Of a stretch of 32,556 nt of DNA, positions 1,609 through 11,222 are shown piece after piece. The stretch covers positions 1-32,556 of the forward strand of contig CAINDP010000218.1 in NCBI GenBank assembly GCA_903847405.1, written 5' to 3'. The number at the start of each line of letters is the position of its first letter. Position 1 is the stretch's first letter. Source of the stretch: an uncultured Myxococcales bacterium (lineage in GTDB: Bacteria; Myxococcota_A; UBA9042; DTJE01). The notes beneath the pieces were generated by a model that saw only the letters and a list, made by a program, of their open reading frames with translations, made no database searches and was not told where the DNA came from. A program made the position numbers and the translations under genes.

Positions 1609-2733
1609 TCACGCCCCGATGGGCAGCGTCACGGTGAACGTGGTGCCGACGTCCGGCGTGCTGGCGACGGTGGCCTCGCCGCCGTACAGGTGGGCCAGGC
1701 GCTGGACGATGGACAGGCCCAGGCCGCTGCCTTCGATCAGGCGGGTCTTGTCGTTCTTGATGCGGACGAACTCGCCGAACAGGCGCGCGCAGTCGGCGGG
1801 GGCCATGCCGATGCCGGTGTCGGCGATCGTCAGGACCACGGCGCCGTCGCCAGCCTGGACCCCGACGTCCACACGGCCCGCATCGCGGTTGTACTTGACC
1901 GCGTTGGACAGCAGGTTGTTCAGGATCAGTTCGATTTCGCCGCGGTCGGCCTTCATCGGCACGGGGGCGCCGGCCGTCAGGTCGATGGTGATGTTGCGCG
2001 CCAGGCCCAGTTCGCGGGCGTTCACGATGCACGCGGTCGCGACCTCGCGGACGTCCAGGTCCACCACCGTACGCGTCTTGCGCCCAGACTCGATGCGCGT
2101 GATGTCCAGCAGGTCGTTGACCAGCTTGCGCATGCCTTCCAGGCGGATGATCGCCCGGGCGATGGGGTGATCGTAGGCGGTCACGTCCTCGCCCAGCACC
2201 CGGTCCTGCATCATGCGCAGGTAGTTTTCGATGGCCGCGGTCGGGGCCTTCATCTCGTGGGCGACGACGGACAGCAGCTCGAAGCGGACGTGCTTGCGCT
2301 CCTCGGCCAGGCGCTTCGCTTCCCGCTGCACGACGATGTGCTTGGCCGCCTTGAACATCACGGACTTCAGTTCGTCGGGCGCGAAGGGCTTCGCCAGGAA
2401 GTCGAAGGCGCCGCGCTTGGTGGCCGCCACCGCGGTTTCCAGCGACGCGTAGGCGGTGATGACGATCGTCACCACGTCCACGCCGTCGGTGTTCAGGCGG
2501 TCCATCAGGTCCAGGCCCGAAATGCCGGGCATCTTGTAGTCCAGCAGCAGGATGTCCGGGGGGGCCTTGCGAATGGTTTCCAGGGCGTCTTCGCCCGACG
2601 CGGCCTGCTCGATGGCCAGGCCGAATTCCTTGCCGAAATCGGGAACCTTGACGACGAAGGCCCGCAGCGCCCGCTCGACGGCCATGCGGATCCCGGGCTC
2701 GTCATCCACGACCAGCACGCGCAGGCTGTCCAT
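1609..2733 (-). CDS. Hybrid response regulator / histidine kinase (REC-HisKA-HATPase)
   Basis: A 374-residue cytoplasmic signalling protein. Residues 1-130 form a receiver domain: acidic pocket D10-D11, phospho-acceptor D65 in 'LLLDYKMPG', and conserved K115 in 'AKPF'. A short linker leads to a dimerisation/phospho-acceptor helix with H159 in 'VVAHEMKAP'. The ATP-binding domain follows, with N-box 'NNLLSNAVKY', G1 'DTGIGM' and G2 'GSGLGL'. There is no membrane segment or sensor domain, so the input is presumably phosphorylation of the receiver. The ATG at 2733 follows a G-rich ribosome site. A GTG at 2763 overlapping the stop of the preceding regulator gene is also possible and would add ten residues. 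It is the last gene of the hydrogenase-linked signalling run, 26 bases after the CheY-like regulator, which may share a phosphorelay with it. Confidence 0.92.
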   Translation of the reverse strand: MDSLRVLVVDDEPGIRMAVERALRAFVVKVPDFGKEFGLAIEQAASGEDALETIRKAPPDILLLDYKMPGISGLDLMDRLNTDGVDVVTIVITAYASLETAVAATKRGAFDFLAKPFAPDELKSVMFKAAKHIVVQREAKRLAEERKHVRFELLSVVAHEMKAPTAAIENYLRMMQDRVLGEDVTAYDHPIARAIIRLEGMRKLVNDLLDITRIESGRKTRTVVDLDVREVATACIVNARELGLARNITIDLTAGAPVPMKADRGEIELILNNLLSNAVKYNRDAGRVDVGVQAGDGAVVLTIADTGIGMAPADCARLFGEFVRIKNDKTRLIEGSGLGLSIVQRLAHLYGGEATVASTPDVGTTFTVTLPIGA

Positions 2734-2759
2734 CGGTGCCCCCCGTTCCCTCGACGACC

Positions 2760-3149
2760 TCACCCCAGCAAGCGGTCGATCTCCGCCTTCAACTGGTCGT
2801 AGCGGATCGGCTTCGGCAGGACCGCATCGGCCGGAACCCAGCGCCGCTCCTCGGCCGTCGCGGCGTCGAACTCCAGCCCGGTTTCGCCCGTGACCCCGGT
2901 CACCAGCAGCACGGGCGTCCCGGGCCGCTTGCGCCGCACGTGATGCCCCAGCACGAACCCCGAGTCCGGGTTTTCCATCATCAGGTCCAGCACCGCCAGA
3001 TCGAAGGGAGTGCCGGCGGACAGCACCTCTTCCCCCTTGACCTGGCCCTCGGCCGTCAGCACGTCAAAGCCGTCGGCCCGCAGGCGCAGGGCCGTGGCCT
3101 CCAGGAAATCCACGTCGTCGTCCACCATCAGGATCGTCTTGCCAGCCAT
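2760..3149 (-). CDS. CheY-like single-domain response regulator
   Basis: A 129-residue stand-alone receiver with no output domain. The phosphorylation site is complete: D10-D11-D12, acceptor D55 in 'AVLDLMMEN', T84 in 'LLVTG', and K113 in 'LPKPI'. The loop after the acceptor is extended ('MMENPDSGF') and closely resembles that of the regulator at 10791-11222 ('MMDNDTEGF'), so the two are probably paralogues. The ATG at 3149 is preceded by GGAGG at good spacing. It sits between two kinase genes and most likely passes phosphate between the hydrogenase-like kinase upstream and the receiver-kinase downstream, or acts by protein contact. The partner is inferred from position only. Confidence 0.92.
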   Translation of the reverse strand: MAGKTILMVDDDVDFLEATALRLRADGFDVLTAEGQVKGEEVLSAGTPFDLAVLDLMMENPDSGFVLGHHVRRKRPGTPVLLVTGVTGETGLEFDAATAEERRWVPADAVLPKPIRYDQLKAEIDRLLG

Positions 3150-3220: not shown

Positions 3221-5224
3221 TCATTCGGCGCGTCCGCGCCGGGGCAGATCGATCTTGAACGTCGTCCCGGTGGGGCCGGCCGCCGGGTCCGCATTGGACG
3301 TCGGCGTGATTTCGCCCCGGTGCATCTTCACGATGCCGTAGGACACCGCCAGGCCCAGGCCCGTGCCGCGCCCCATGGGCTTGGTCGTGAAGAACGGCGT
3401 GAAGATCTTCCCCATGTGGTCCGGGCGGATCCCGGTGCCCGTGTCCACCACCTCGAACACCATGCGTTCGTCGGTCCCGCCCGTGCGCACCGTCAAGGTG
3501 CCGCCGTTGGGCATCGCCTCGATCGCGTTGACCATCACGTTCGTCAGGACCTGCAGGATCTGGTCCCGATCCAGTTCCGCCACGGGGTCGATGCTGGCGT
3601 GCTCGACGCGCACCTTCACGCCCTCGGGGCGCCGAACGCCCCGCATGGCCGCGTCCACCAGGTCCCGCACGTTCACCGGTTGCAGGTTCACCTGGCTCTG
3701 GCGCGCGAAGTTCAGCAGCCCCGACACGATGCGCTTGCACCGGTCCGCCTGCTCGGCGATCAGTTTCAGGTCCGTGTGCAACTGCGTGTCCTTGCCCGCC
3801 TCGTCGGCCAGCAGGTGCGCATACATCAGCACCACGCCCAGGGGGTTGTTCACCTCGTGGGCGATGCCCGCCGCCAACTGCCCCATGCTGGCCAGTTTCT
3901 CGGCGTGCACCAGCGCGTCCTGCGTGCTAGCCAGTTGCCGGTGCGACTCGTGCAGTTCGCCCACCGTCGTCCGCAGCCGGTCGATCGTCCACGGCAGGCA
4001 CATCTCGCTTTCGGCGAGGCCCTGGTGGATCGCGATCGCATGCTCGCAGCACGTCGGGTAGCCGCACGCGCCGCAGTTCAGTTCGTCCTCGGGACGGTCC
4101 TTTCCCATGCGGGACAGGATCGCCTGGATTTCCTCCCGGGTCGGCCCCTGCAGGCGCCGGTCGTCCGGGGCGAATCCCCGGGACAGGTCCAGGCCGGCAT
4201 AGCGCCGCATCGCCTTGCGCCACACCTTTTCGTCCAGCGTCACCGCCCGATCCTTGACGTAGTGCGACACGGCCGTCTGGCGGGTGAAGCGCGGCGCCCG
4301 CGTGGTCATCCCCGGCCCCATCACGCACCCCTGGCAGGCAAGGACCTCCAGCAGCGCGGCCGGGATCGCGCCGGCCTCGAACTCCTTCACGGCCTCGACG
4401 AACCGCTCGTGCCCGTCGGCGGTCACGCCCTCGGCGTCCACCAGGTCGTCGTCCACCGCGGCGGCCTTCAGCAGCCCGCCCGTGATCGCGAACAGCCCGC
4501 CCACGGCGCCGTGGGGGGGATCGAAATCCGAATCGACGACGTCCTCGGCCCGCACGCCGCGCCGCCGGAACAGTTCCCGCAATTCGGCGAACGTCATCGC
4601 CGCGACGACCTCGTCCCGGGCGAAGCCGTCCGTTTCCGCCTTCTTGGCGATGCACGGTCCGGCGAACACCGTGGGCACCTCGGCGCCGTGGATGCGCCGC
4701 ATCACGCGGGCCGCCGCCACCATGGGCGACACGATCGGCGCCAGGGACCCGACCAGGTGCGGGTGATAGCGTTCCACATACTCGACCAGGGCCGGGCAGG
4801 TGGTCGCGACATAGGTGCGTCCGGCCGCGCCGTCCAGCAACTGGCGGTACCGCTCCGACACGAGGTCCGCCCCGAAGGCCACCTCGTGTACGAAGGTGAA
4901 CCCGGCGGCCCGCAGCATCCCCACGAACCGCTTCCAGGGCACGTCCAGGAACTCCGCGGGGAACGACGGCGCGACCATGATCGACACGGGCGTCCCGGCG
5001 TCCAGCAACGGCTCGATTTCGCCCAGGCTGTCGCGGACCTGCTTGGCGTGCTGGCTGCAGACCTGCACGCAGTTGCCGCAGCCGATGCACCGGTCGGCCA
5101 TGACCTCGGCCTGGCCGCCCGTGATGCGGATCGCCTTCGCCGGACACTCGCGGACGCAGCCGTAGCAGACGCGGCACCGCTCGCGAATCGTCGTGATCAA
5201 CGGTCTTGCCAGCATGCCCGTCAC
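3221..5224 (-). CDS. Sensory [FeFe]-hydrogenase-like Fe-S protein fused to histidine kinase
   Basis: A 667-residue soluble fusion. (1) Residues 15-60 carry two ferredoxin-type 4Fe-4S motifs. (2) Residues 75-330 form an [FeFe]-hydrogenase large-subunit-like domain. It keeps single cysteines at the H-cluster loops: C143 in 'TTCPAL', C191 in 'GPCIAKKAE', and C297/C300 in 'ACQGCVMGPG'. The proton-transfer cysteine of catalytic enzymes is Thr here, and the last pair is CX2C rather than CX3C. (3) Residues 383-410 are a small four-Cys Fe-S domain ('NCGACGYPTCC'). (4) A histidine kinase core follows, with H456 in 'AHEVNNP', then 'DTGTGI' and 'GTGLGL'. The GTG at 5224 has GGAGG six bases upstream; ATG 5215 is the alternative. 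It follows hydA by 52 bases. Role inferred: a cytoplasmic redox or H2 sensor that signals to the adjacent regulators. Whether an H-cluster is really bound cannot be told. Confidence 0.9.
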   Translation of the reverse strand: MTGMLARPLITTIRERCRVCYGCVRECPAKAIRITGGQAEVMADRCIGCGNCVQVCSQHAKQVRDSLGEIEPLLDAGTPVSIMVAPSFPAEFLDVPWKRFVGMLRAAGFTFVHEVAFGADLVSERYRQLLDGAAGRTYVATTCPALVEYVERYHPHLVGSLAPIVSPMVAAARVMRRIHGAEVPTVFAGPCIAKKAETDGFARDEVVAAMTFAELRELFRRRGVRAEDVVDSDFDPPHGAVGGLFAITGGLLKAAAVDDDLVDAEGVTADGHERFVEAVKEFEAGAIPAALLEVLACQGCVMGPGMTTRAPRFTRQTAVSHYVKDRAVTLDEKVWRKAMRRYAGLDLSRGFAPDDRRLQGPTREEIQAILSRMGKDRPEDELNCGACGYPTCCEHAIAIHQGLAESEMCLPWTIDRLRTTVGELHESHRQLASTQDALVHAEKLASMGQLAAGIAHEVNNPLGVVLMYAHLLADEAGKDTQLHTDLKLIAEQADRCKRIVSGLLNFARQSQVNLQPVNVRDLVDAAMRGVRRPEGVKVRVEHASIDPVAELDRDQILQVLTNVMVNAIEAMPNGGTLTVRTGGTDERMVFEVVDTGTGIRPDHMGKIFTPFFTTKPMGRGTGLGLAVSYGIVKMHRGEITPTSNADPAAGPTGTTFKIDLPRRGRAE

Positions 5225-7036: not shown

Positions 7037-9010
7037 CTAGGCCACCAGGACCGCGTGGTGCCGGCACTCGATCCGGCACTGGCCGCACGCGATGCACTTT
7101 TCGGGCACCACGTAGTGGGCCGCCCGGGGCGCGCCCAGGATGGCGGCCGTCGGGCAGGACCGTGCGCACAGGCCGCACCCGTTGCACTTTTCGACGTCGA
7201 TGCTGAAGGTCAGCAGCTCGGTGCAGGCCCCGGCGCGGCACTTCCGCTCGAAGACGTGCTCCTCGTATTCCTCCCGGAACCACCGCAGGGTGGACAGGAC
7301 CGGGTTCGGCGCCGACTGGCCCAGGCCGCACAGGCTGGTGTCCTGGATGACGCCCGCCAGGCGCTCCAGGTACAGCACGCCCTGGAAGCGCTCCAGCGCC
7401 TCGTTCGCCTTTTCGTTGCGACGGCTGCGGGTGATGCGCTGCAGGATTTCCAGCATGCGCCGGGTGCCCTCGCGGCACGGGATGCACTTGCCGCAGGACT
7501 CGCGCTGGATGAAGTCCATGAAGAACTTGGCCAGGTCCACCATGCAGGTGGTTTCGTCCATGACGACCAGGCCGCCCGAGCCCATCATCGCGCCCACGGC
7601 CTTCAGGGATTCGTAGTCGACCACCGTGTCCAGGTGCGATTCCGGGATGCAACCGCCCGAGGGTCCGCCGATCTGCACGGCCTTGAAGGCCTTGCCGTCC
7701 GGCACGCCGCCGCCCACTTCGTACACGATTTCGCGCAGGCTGGTGCCCATCGGGACCTCGACCAGCCCCGTGCGCGTCACCCGCCCCGACAGTGCAAAGA
7801 CCTTGGTCCCCTTGCTGCCCGCGGTGCCGATCGCCGCGAAGGCCTCGGCGCCGCCCGCCATCAGGCCCGGGAGGTTCGCCAGCGTCTCGACGTTGTTGAT
7901 GATCGTCGGCTTGCCGAACAGGCCCGACACGGCCGGGTAAGGCGGCCGGGGGCGGGGCATGCCGCGCTTGCCCTCGATGCTGTTCAGCAGGGCCGTTTCC
8001 TCGCCGCAAACGAAGGCGCCGGCGCCCTGCTTGACCGCGATTTCCAGGTCCACGCCGCTGCCCAGGATGTCCTTTCCGATGAATCCCCAGGACCGGGCCT
8101 GCTCGATCGCCTCGTGCAGGCGGGCCACGGCCAGCGGGTACTCGGCCCGGATGTACACGTAGGCCTTGGTGGCGCCGATGGCGTAGGCCGCGATGGCCAG
8201 GCCTTCCAGCAGCCGGTGGGGGTCGCCCTCGACGACGGCCCGGTCCATGAACGCGCCCGGATCGCCCTCGTCGGCGTTGCACACCAGGTACTTGCGGTCG
8301 CCCGGCGAGTTCAGGGCGGTCTTCCACTTGGTGCCGGCCGGGAAGCCGCCGCCGCCACGCCCGCGCAGGCCCGCGCTTTCCACCAGGTTGCAGACCTCGG
8401 GCGGGGTCAGGGTGCGGACGGTCTTGGCGTAGGCCGCGTAGCCTCCGCCGGCCAGGTATTCCTCGATGCGGGCCGGATCGATGACGCCGCAGTTCTTCAG
8501 CACCCAGCGCATCTGGGGCCGGAAGAAGGGATGTTCGTTCTGGAAGGGCACGCCGTCCCAGGCCGCCTGGCCTTCGCCACGGAACTGGTACAGGGCCTTG
8601 TCCACCGGTGGGGTGCCGTCCAGCGTGCCGCCCAGGACCTCGGGGACGAACTTGGCGGTCACGCCGCCGAAGGACAGGCGGGCCCGGCCGGGCAGTTGCA
8701 CGTCCACCATGGGTTCGGACGCGCACAGGCCGATGCAGCCGACCTCGACCACGTCGCCGTCGATCCCGCGGGTCGCCAGCAGTTCCTTCACGGCGGCCAG
8801 GGTCTTCCCCGCACCGGCGCCCAGGCCGCAGGTCCCGGTCCCGACGAACACGGTCGGGCGGTCCACGTCATCGCGCCGCAGCCGGCGCATCGCGTCTTCG
8901 AGGCGCTTCACGCGGGCCTCGTCGGACTTCCGGGTCGCCCCGATCAGGACGGCCCGCATCTCGGATCGCGGCAGGTCGCCGTCCCGGGTCAGTTCGCGTG
9001 CAGTGTTCAT
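7037..9010 (-). CDS. hydB: NAD-linked hydrogenase flavoprotein subunit HydB (NuoF-like)
   Basis: A 657-residue NuoF-type diaphorase subunit that binds FMN and NAD(H) and carries electrons to or from HydA. Residues 20-115 form a thioredoxin-fold 2Fe-2S-like domain. It shows 'VGTGTCG' and 'GCIGLCAS', so one of the four usual ligands is replaced. The NuoF core follows, with 'GRGGGGFPAGTKW' and 'NADEGDPGAFMDR' for FMN/NAD binding and 'CGKCIPCREG' (from C506) plus 'CGLG' for a 4Fe-4S cluster. The C-terminus has a four-Cys segment ('KCRAGACTE') and two ferredoxin clusters ('CNGCGLCARSCP', 'CIACGQCRIEC'), which is the HydB layout and not that of complex I NuoF. Its ATG overlaps the hydC stop as ATGA, indicating translational coupling. 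HydA starts 41 bases after its stop. Confidence 0.96.
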   Translation of the reverse strand: MNTARELTRDGDLPRSEMRAVLIGATRKSDEARVKRLEDAMRRLRRDDVDRPTVFVGTGTCGLGAGAGKTLAAVKELLATRGIDGDVVEVGCIGLCASEPMVDVQLPGRARLSFGGVTAKFVPEVLGGTLDGTPPVDKALYQFRGEGQAAWDGVPFQNEHPFFRPQMRWVLKNCGVIDPARIEEYLAGGGYAAYAKTVRTLTPPEVCNLVESAGLRGRGGGGFPAGTKWKTALNSPGDRKYLVCNADEGDPGAFMDRAVVEGDPHRLLEGLAIAAYAIGATKAYVYIRAEYPLAVARLHEAIEQARSWGFIGKDILGSGVDLEIAVKQGAGAFVCGEETALLNSIEGKRGMPRPRPPYPAVSGLFGKPTIINNVETLANLPGLMAGGAEAFAAIGTAGSKGTKVFALSGRVTRTGLVEVPMGTSLREIVYEVGGGVPDGKAFKAVQIGGPSGGCIPESHLDTVVDYESLKAVGAMMGSGGLVVMDETTCMVDLAKFFMDFIQRESCGKCIPCREGTRRMLEILQRITRSRRNEKANEALERFQGVLYLERLAGVIQDTSLCGLGQSAPNPVLSTLRWFREEYEEHVFERKCRAGACTELLTFSIDVEKCNGCGLCARSCPTAAILGAPRAAHYVVPEKCIACGQCRIECRHHAVLVA

Positions 9011-9558
9011 GCGGCGGTCCTCCTCTTGTAGGAGTTGAGGATGGCGGCGACCTTTTCCGGGGCCACGCCCGCGTGGAATTCCCCGTTGACCGCGATCACC
9101 GGCGCCAGTCCGCAGGCCCCGATGCAGGCGACGACTTCCAGACTGAACATGCCGTCGCGGGTCGTTTCGCCGGGCTCGACCTTCAGGATGCGCTTGATCG
9201 CGTCCAGGACCGCGGCGCTGCCCTTCACGTGGCAGGCCGTCCCGCGGCACACCTGGACGTTGTAGGTCCCGCGCGCCTGGAACCGGAACTGGTTGTAGAA
9301 GGTCGCCACGCCGTAGACCTTGCTGGGAGGCAGGGCCAGGTGGCGCGCGACCTTGATGACGGACTCCCGGGACAGGTGGCCTTCCGCCTCCTGGACCTCC
9401 TGGAGGATCGGGATCAGTGCGTCCCGACCCGCGCCCGGATGACGGGACAGCACCTCTTCGATTCGTCCTTCCACCTTCGCCCCCTTCCCACCGGGGCCGG
9501 ACGATCCGCCCCCGTTCTGTTCAGCATTGTCGTCGGCGAGCACTTTCACGTTTTCCAT
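9007..9558 (-). CDS. hydC: NuoE-like 2Fe-2S hydrogenase subunit HydC
   Basis: A 183-residue thioredoxin-like ferredoxin subunit and the first gene of the hydrogenase operon. The four 2Fe-2S ligands are all present in the NuoE pattern: C104 and C109 in 'CRGTAC', C145 and C149 in 'CIGAC'. The helical N-terminal part ('LIPILQEVQEAEGHLSRESV', then 'VYGVATFYNQF') is also typical. The first 30 residues are a Gly/Ser/Asp-rich tail of low complexity. The only ribosome site is a weak GGA, and it lies inside the Rex operator that directly abuts the ATG. Repressor binding there would block both the transcription start region and the leader. The stop overlaps hydB by four bases. Confidence 0.96.
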   Translation of the reverse strand: MENVKVLADDNAEQNGGGSSGPGGKGAKVEGRIEEVLSRHPGAGRDALIPILQEVQEAEGHLSRESVIKVARHLALPPSKVYGVATFYNQFRFQARGTYNVQVCRGTACHVKGSAAVLDAIKRILKVEPGETTRDGMFSLEVVACIGACGLAPVIAVNGEFHAGVAPEKVAAILNSYKRRTAA

Positions 9559-9576
9559 CTGTGATTCCGTTCACAG
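9559..9576 (-). promoter_or_regulatory. Rex operator of the hydrogenase operon
   Basis: A perfect inverted repeat, CTGTGA-N6-TCACAG, fits the known Rex pattern TGTGA-N6-TCACA. It lies immediately before the hydC ATG and just downstream of a promoter with TTGACA at 9614-9609 and CAAACT at 9591-9586. Rex bound here at low NADH would block transcription; high NADH would release it. The rex gene itself is the divergent neighbour. Confidence 0.8.
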
Positions 9577-10005: not shown

Positions 10006-10668
10006 GTGGATCCGCTGGACCCGATCGATGGGACGGAAAAGACACCCGGTCGGGTTCCGCCCCAGACCGTGGCCCGCCTGACCGTGTACCGAAAGGTCCT
10101 GGCAGAACTGCACGCCGAGGGCGTCGAAAACGTCTATTCGCACCGCCTGGCGGAACTGGCCGGCGTCCACCCCGCGCAATTGCGCCGGGACCTGTCGATC
10201 TTCGGCTCGTTCGGCTCCATCAGCCGCGGCTACGAGGTCTACCAACTGTCCTTGACGATCGGCAGGCTGCTGGGCACGGATCGCCAGCAGACCGTCGCCC
10301 TGGTCGGCCTGGGCAACCTGGGGCGCACCCTGCTGACCTACCACGGCTTCGAGGAGCGCGGCTTCCACGTAGGCGTGGTCTTCGACAAGGACCGGGAAAA
10401 GGTCGGGCGCGTGTACGCCGGACGCCGCTGCCACCCGGTGGAGGACATCCAGACGGTGCTGCCCGAATACGGCGCGCGCATCGCGATCCTGGCGTGCGGC
10501 CCCGTGGGCGTCGAGGCTGTGGTGGACCACCTGGCGAAGGCCGGCGTCAAGTCCATCCTGAACTTCGTGCCCCGGCGCATCCCGGCGCCCCCGGGCGTGC
10601 ACGTGGAGGACGTCGATATTTCGGCCACGCTGGAAATGCTCTCCTTCCTGAGCAAGGTGGAGGAATGA
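10006..10668 (+). CDS. rex: Redox-sensing transcriptional repressor Rex
   Basis: A 220-residue dimeric repressor that reads the NADH/NAD+ ratio. Residues 18-85 form the N-terminal winged helix ('PPQTVARLTVYRKVLAEL', then 'LAELAGVHPAQLRRDLSIFGSFG', the DNA-recognition part). The Rossmann domain follows, with the nucleotide loop G101-L-G103-N-L-G106. The C-terminus has 'NFVPRRIPAPPGVHVEDVDIS', typical of Rex, and the domain-swapped last helix. The GTG at 10006 has CGGAGG five to six bases upstream; no better start exists. It is divergent from hydCBA and followed by its own short terminator. Two clear Rex-type operators lie on either side of the gene, so its targets here are probably the hydrogenase operon and the response regulator downstream. 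Confidence 0.96.
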   Translation: MDPLDPIDGTEKTPGRVPPQTVARLTVYRKVLAELHAEGVENVYSHRLAELAGVHPAQLRRDLSIFGSFGSISRGYEVYQLSLTIGRLLGTDRQQTVALVGLGNLGRTLLTYHGFEERGFHVGVVFDKDREKVGRVYAGRRCHPVEDIQTVLPEYGARIAILACGPVGVEAVVDHLAKAGVKSILNFVPRRIPAPPGVHVEDVDISATLEMLSFLSKVEE

Positions 10669-10697: not shown

Positions 10698-10719
10698 AGT
10701 TGTGAACGTTTTCACAACT
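10698..10719 (+). promoter_or_regulatory. Strong Rex operator upstream of the response regulator
   Basis: A perfect 22-base palindrome has nine-base arms AGTTGTGAA and TTCACAACT around CGTT. It contains the full Rex consensus TTGTGAA-N4-TTCACAA. A TTGACC -35 candidate lies just upstream at 10690-10695, so the operator covers the spacer and -10 region. It controls the gene starting at 10791, not rex itself. Confidence 0.85.
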
Positions 10720-10790: not shown

Positions 10791-11222
10791 ATGGCGAACG
10801 CGAAGCGGATCCTGGTAATCGACGACGACGAAGACCTGGTGCTGTCCACCACCGCCCTGCTGCGAGCCCGGGGCTGGGAAGCCGAGGGCGCGCGGAACAG
10901 CGTCGACGGACTGGCGAAGATCCGCGACTGGCAGCCGGACCTGCTGGTGCTGGACATCATGATGGACAACGACACCGAGGGCTTCCAGCTGGCGTACAAG
11001 CTGAAGGAAGACCCGACCCTGCGCGGCCTGCCCGTCATCATCGTGTCGTCCTTCCAGGAGCACCTGGCCGACAAGATGGACAAGTTCCAGTTCGTGCTGG
11101 GGAACGAGTGGCCGGCGGAAGCGATGCTGGAGAAGCCCGTCAAGCCCGAGAAGCTGGCCGAAACCGTGGCGAGCCTGCTGGCCGCCGCCGACGCCCGCGC
11201 CGCCGCTGCCGCAGCCGAGTAG
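10791..11222 (+). CDS. Single-domain response regulator under Rex control
   Basis: A 143-residue CheY-type receiver without an output domain. Conserved residues are D11-D12-D13, acceptor D55 in 'LVLDIMMDN', Ser in 'IIVSSF', and Lys in 'LEKPVKP'. The last 15 residues are almost all Ala. The acceptor loop 'MMDNDTEGF' resembles the regulator at 2760-3149, so the two look like paralogues. A strong ribosome site (AGGAGG) precedes the ATG. No kinase gene adjoins it; the kinases of the hydrogenase operon are the obvious candidates. The near-perfect Rex operator in its promoter means it should be made when NADH is high, together with the hydrogenase. It converges on lspA with only four bases between the stops. 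Confidence 0.92.
   Translation: MANAKRILVIDDDEDLVLSTTALLRARGWEAEGARNSVDGLAKIRDWQPDLLVLDIMMDNDTEGFQLAYKLKEDPTLRGLPVIIVSSFQEHLADKMDKFQFVLGNEWPAEAMLEKPVKPEKLAETVASLLAAADARAAAAAAE

Follow-up and report, generated by a model that had tools for sequence, protein, structure and literature searches.

A kinase-fused [FeFe]-hydrogenase-like sensor with a CX2C ligand pair, encoded beside HydABC in a Myxococcota genome

A conserved hydrogenase and putative phosphorelay locus

The window, which is the whole 32,556-nucleotide stretch of DNA analysed here from an uncultured Myxococcales bacterium, contains a compact hydrogenase locus with the following genes and sites:

1609..2763, minus strand: hybrid of receiver, HisKA and HATPase, whose gene shares 4 nt with that of the lone receiver
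2760..3149, minus strand: lone receiver of 129 aa without an output domain, downstream of the sensor and in the same direction
3221..5224, minus strand: HydS-type [FeFe]-hydrogenase-like sensor histidine kinase, 667 aa
5277..6995, minus strand: HydA with intact H-cluster motifs, upstream of the sensor
7037..9010, minus strand: HydB, NuoF-like, FMN, Fe-S
9007..9558, minus strand: HydC, NuoE-like, 2Fe-2S
9559..9576, plus strand: Rex-box-like site CTGTGATTCCGTTCACAG, directly adjoining the start codon of hydC (pattern match)
10006..10668, plus strand: redox-sensing repressor Rex, divergent
10700..10717, plus strand: perfect Rex-box-like site TTGTGAACGTTTTCACAA, between rex and the second lone receiver gene (pattern match)
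10791..11222, plus strand: second lone receiver, adjoining rex and divergent from hydCBA

The sensor gene has a GTG start at 5224 and a stop codon ending at 3221 on the minus strand, and conservation along its full length rules out a chance open reading frame. The adjoining HydA is intact, as the first-pass annotation had stated, with all three motifs retained (TSCCPAW, MPCTAKK, and CPGGC), and scores above the cut-off of the NCBIfam family 'NADH-dependent [FeFe] hydrogenase, group A6'. The order Rex, HydCBA, HydS-kinase, receiver, receiver-kinase is conserved. HydA lies directly upstream of the sensor in 59 of 69 relatives with enough flanking sequence, and a receiver-kinase gene lies downstream in 64 of 68 such loci. 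No DNA-binding output for the phosphorelay is encoded in the operon. The same genome holds a second set of HydA, sensor kinase, and receiver on another contig (C204; 47% identity), and the genome's HydE, HydF, and HydG all score over cut-off.

Core-perfect Rex-box-like sites were also found at the hydC start in three close relatives (L038-L040) and in none of the control segments. Across the window, matches at a loose threshold (3 mismatches) were no more numerous in total than chance would give; the case for predicted Rex binding depends instead on one site being perfect and on where the sites lie.

Domain architecture of the sensor kinase

The 667-residue protein can be divided into the following parts, all on the minus strand:

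5057..5185, minus strand: two [4Fe-4S] ferredoxin motifs, Fer4_10, residues 14-56 (Pfam)
4313..4990, minus strand: H-domain, Fe_hyd_lg_C, residues 79-304 (Pfam E 9.5e-38; AF2; Foldseek)
4796..4801, minus strand: L1, T142-C143, Thr at the CpI C299 position, then ligand Cys (alignment)
4643..4657, minus strand: L2, P190-C191-x-x-K194, ligand Cys, with K194 equivalent to CpI K358 (alignment)
4325..4336, minus strand: L3, C297-Q-G-C300, CX2C in place of CX3C (alignment)
3992..4081, minus strand: C-terminal Fe-S domain PF04060, residues 382-411, Cx2Cx4Cx16C (Pfam)
3698..3886, minus strand: HisKA dimerisation and phospho-acceptor domain, residues 447-509, with His456 (Pfam)
3239..3571, minus strand: HATPase_c kinase domain, residues 552-662 (Pfam)

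This Pfam order agrees with the earlier description of a single polypeptide joining two ferredoxin clusters, a hydrogenase-like domain, a further Fe-S domain, and a full kinase. The match to PF02906 (Fe_hyd_lg_C) reached 130.6 bits against a curated cut-off of 22.1. The four cysteines of the C-terminal domain span residues 384-409 and match exactly the HydS motif Cx2Cx4Cx16C, published as the C-terminal motif of group C/D sensory hydrogenases (PMC8163306). In the kinase part, H456, D594, G596, G598, G620, G622, and G624 are invariant in 72 aligned homologues.

The AF2 model of the protein had a mean pLDDT of 87.9, with low values only at residues 1-4 and 431-450 and values mostly of 90-98 in the H-domain. 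Foldseek searches with this model returned [FeFe]-hydrogenases as best matches (CpI, DdH, and HydABC structures), and the kinase ZraS was also matched. An AtoS/ZraS-like identity was rejected, as the NCBIfam matches are confined to the kinase part and fall below cut-off. Pfam detected no PAS domain in the sensor. The gap from C409 to HisKA is only ~37 residues, and in the model helix 410-431 runs into the DHp helix 439-475, leaving no room for one. The protein therefore lacks the PAS domain that follows the C-terminal cluster in group C M2f (TmHydS-like) sensors, and it has the HisKA and HATPase fusion plus an adjoining HydABC hydrogenase gene that mark the BfuT/C3 type.

CX2C is a signature of kinase-fused sensors

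All four ligand cysteines named in the first-pass annotation (C143, C191, C297, and C300) are present, a threonine (T142) does stand at the position of the proton-transfer cysteine (CpI C299), and the last ligand pair does read CX2C. Its L3 sequence, EVLACQGCVMG, departs from the CX3C of the PF02906 superfamily. The claim that this ligand set is unusual held only for the pair. The proton-transfer cysteine is not conserved in groups C and D (relatives of the sensor have T, P, S, A, F, N, or D there), and since only 17% of sensory sequences keep Cys at this position (PMC10055695), the threonine is ordinary and was set aside as a notable feature.

A profile scan of 84,980 species genomes yielded at least 518 relatives of the sensor. 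The best 80 come from Myxococcota, Hydrogenedentota, Planctomycetota, Acidobacteriota, Latescibacterota, Calditrichota, and other phyla, and all of these 80, as far as their contigs extend, show CxGC together with the fused order of Fe-S and kinase domains. The closest named relatives belong to Myxococcota or Deltaproteobacteria bins (L038, L039, and L040). We then compared 137 kinase-fused, 18 PAS-type, 8 sigma-54-fused, and 12 group A/B rows in a common column alignment. The four ligand cysteines are kept in 137/137 kinase-fused homologues and 136 of these are CX2C, a pattern that is not due to chance and that rules out a local mutation as the source of the altered ligands. CX3C is found in the one remaining kinase-fused row (L152) and in every row of the other types: 18/18 PAS-type (including Ruminococcus albus), 8/8 sigma-54-fused, and 12/12 group A/B. 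Relatives from R. albus (HydS), Monoglobus, Acetoanaerobium, and Subdoligranulum have CX3C and no fused kinase.

In a tree built without the L3 columns, L152 nests in the clade of the window protein; it has CX3C with its other motifs unchanged, and this spacing therefore looks regained. Placing all kinase-fused rows in one clade was not rejected (p-AU 0.82) and gave the higher likelihood. An extra cysteine just before the pair (LCCxGC) occurs in 56/137 kinase-fused members, leaving them, at least in theory, an alternative pair with CX3C spacing; the window protein, with LACQGC, has no such option. Judged from these alignments, CX2C is a clade-wide signature of kinase-fused sensors that sets them apart from R. 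albus-type group C and from group A. We found no description of it in the published texts consulted, so that the signature appears to be undescribed so far, and among the sequences compared there is no precedent for CX2C with a characterised H-cluster.

A group-D-like HydS with PAS, HisKA, and HATPase domains and CX3C (L186:1-2445, minus strand) apparently represents an independent kinase fusion.

Is the H-cluster retained?

CX2C spacing is typical of plain [4Fe-4S] clusters. This raises the alternative that in the CX2C lineage the [2Fe] subsite is gone and the [4Fe-4S] cubane alone remains, in which case these proteins would be ferredoxin-redox sensor kinases and not H2 sensors. The residues that contact [2Fe] speak against it: P231 and P354 (CpI numbering) are conserved in 137/137 kinase-fused rows and K358 in 129/137, the window-type clade keeps all three, and they would have no reason to remain invariant if [2Fe] were gone. 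HydG points the same way: among the tested genomes that carry this sensor type, 15/15 from Myxococcota (including G054, which has the CX3C member) and 10/12 from other phyla have it over cut-off. The nesting of L152, CX3C with otherwise unchanged motifs, within the window-type clade also argues against a cubane-only lineage.

Other relatives fit the loss of [2Fe] better. Among 25 sensor-bearing Bacteroidota genomes, 11 had no HydG match, and nine of these 11, with CX2C sensors, had no HydF match either. It is possible that HydG and HydF matches were missed or that the maturases of Bacteroidota are divergent. Six Bacteroidota genomes without a HydG match encode an intact HydA beside the sensor, which weakens the absence of HydG as proof of a missing H-cluster. 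Further points in favour of loss are the eight of 137 kinase-fused rows without K358, where 5/8 genomes have neither HydG over cut-off nor HydF, and the sigma-54-fused sensors, which have lost P231, P354, and K358 and whose genomes have HydG over cut-off in 0/8 and HydF in 0/8. On balance, we consider it rather unlikely that the window protein belongs to a lineage holding the cubane alone.

G379, assembled as one 3.7 Mb contig, and eight other Bacteroidota genomes (L222 among them) have HydABC-type genes and the sensor kinase without a HydG or HydF match. The HydA adjoining the sensor in G286, G306, G379, and G522 has intact motifs. The rows without K358 form a CX2C kinase-fused subclade (L193-L197, L199, L201, and L204) in which L2 reads TPCLAH or TPCLAQ. 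The sigma-54-fused type is represented by L198:1489-3789 (plus strand), where an [FeFe]-hydrogenase-like sensor is joined to a sigma-54 activator AAA+ domain (PF00158, E 4e-67) and a Fis-type HTH; L200, L202, L203, and L205-L208 were assigned to the same type by motif and length, the domain scan having covered L198. These sensors are probably hydrogen-free one-component redox regulators, and we found no paper on a sigma-54-fused hydrogenase-like sensor in the literature.

Ligand variation was also seen in group A HydA. A TSCSPGW-type L1, with Ser at the position of a cubane-ligand Cys in CpI numbering, occurs in L152:4082-6046, L154, L014, L156, L188, and L155, as well as in the solved HydABC structure 7q4v. 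Zheng and Huang 2024 mention this variation (PMC11406978).

Relation to known sensory hydrogenases

The direct kinase fusion, which the first-pass annotation put forward for direct tests, is not new: HydDB lists group C1 as 'histidine kinase-linked (putative)' (PMC5037454), and a 2024 paper described group C3 hydrogenases that carry a kinase and are encoded beside HydABC (PMC11406978). As far as the text of that paper goes, BfuT is a group C3 hydrogenase with a histidine kinase domain that adjoins A3 hydrogenases in Hydrogenedentota, in sub-type V BfuABC clusters; the cluster organisation is the same in Calditrichota, with related clusters in Bacteroidota, and Caldithrix abyssi and HydDB best hits including WP_006928132.1 are named (PMC11406978). 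The same text describes group C1 proteins with a HATPase domain as ones in which H-cluster motifs are hard to find, and it makes no mention of CX2C or of receiver and receiver-kinase partners (PMC11406978). BfuT resembles the window protein in its fusion of H-domain and histidine kinase and in adjoining bfuA/hydA, and its phyla, Hydrogenedentota and Calditrichota, are also among the relatives found here (L047, L087, and L075); the window protein differs in its Myxococcota host and its divergent rex. We infer that it falls within the BfuT/C3 set. It is an ordinary member of a published sensor family, with one apparently undescribed feature.

The group C (M2f) sensors R. albus HydS and TmHydS (Thermotoga maritima) share with the window protein the N-terminal clusters, the H-domain, Cx2Cx4Cx16C, a Gly at the M353 position, and co-occurrence with group A hydrogenases. 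However, R. albus HydS has a PAS-length tail, no fused kinase, and a CX3C L3 (CNGSC), and TmHydS, compared by description, ends in PAS without a fused kinase. TamHydS (Thermoanaerobacter mathranii, group D, M2e), also compared by description, has the same four-Cys C-terminal motif and likewise misses the proton-transfer Cys, but it has neither PAS nor a fused kinase. We found no biochemistry of kinase-fused members in the literature. The regulatory [NiFe]-hydrogenase HoxBC, with its kinase HoxJ, is a precedent for a hydrogenase that serves a histidine kinase as H2 sensor; it belongs to another metalloenzyme family and works through separate subunits, so the parallel is one of analogy only.

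A model for signalling at the locus

We favour, with reasonable confidence, the view that the window protein is a cytoplasmic group-C-type [FeFe]-hydrogenase turned sensor, fused to a histidine kinase and tuning HydABC. The architecture, the conserved HydABC/receiver locus, and the homology to group C all support the earlier suggestion of a hydrogenase converted into a sensor kinase; the signal is most likely H2 or the linked ferredoxin redox state, a choice that sequence cannot decide. In the proposed mechanism, electrons or H2 would reach the H-domain, with its presumably complete H-cluster, via the N-terminal ferredoxin clusters. A conformational change in the C-terminal [4Fe-4S] domain would follow from the state of the H-site and, since this domain is carried on the helix running into the DHp helices, would set the autophosphorylation of His456. 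Phosphate may then pass to the lone receiver, to the adjoining receiver-kinase hybrid, or to both, and the phosphorelay would tune the HydABC hydrogenase in whichever direction the response may take. Rex appears to control HydABC too, through NADH.

A different role, in which the protein acts chiefly as an enzyme of low activity or as an electron-transfer partner for HydABC and its kinase part is vestigial, would be in keeping with co-encoding beside HydABC, with the shared fold, and with the slow H2 turnover of characterised sensory hydrogenases (PMC8163306). The invariance of His456 and the ATP-binding residues in 72 homologues and the receiver partners conserved nearby make it highly improbable.

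Returning to the sensor kinase reading, we tentatively propose that the kinase-fused sensors share a single, old origin, and that shortening of the ligand pair to CX2C in this lineage gave either a re-spaced sensing H-cluster or a redox sensor with the cubane alone. Alongside the relatives that lost K358 and those fused to sigma-54 activator domains, they may line up naturally as steps from an enzyme, through an H2 sensor, to a redox sensor that is hydrogen-free. The characterised [FeFe]-hydrogenase sensors TmHydS and TamHydS carry no output module in which the relay of H2 information to the cell could be assayed. A soluble protein that joins sensor and kinase in a single chain would make this relay directly measurable, and the conserved replacement of CX3C by CX2C would probe the ligand geometry that an H-cluster tolerates.
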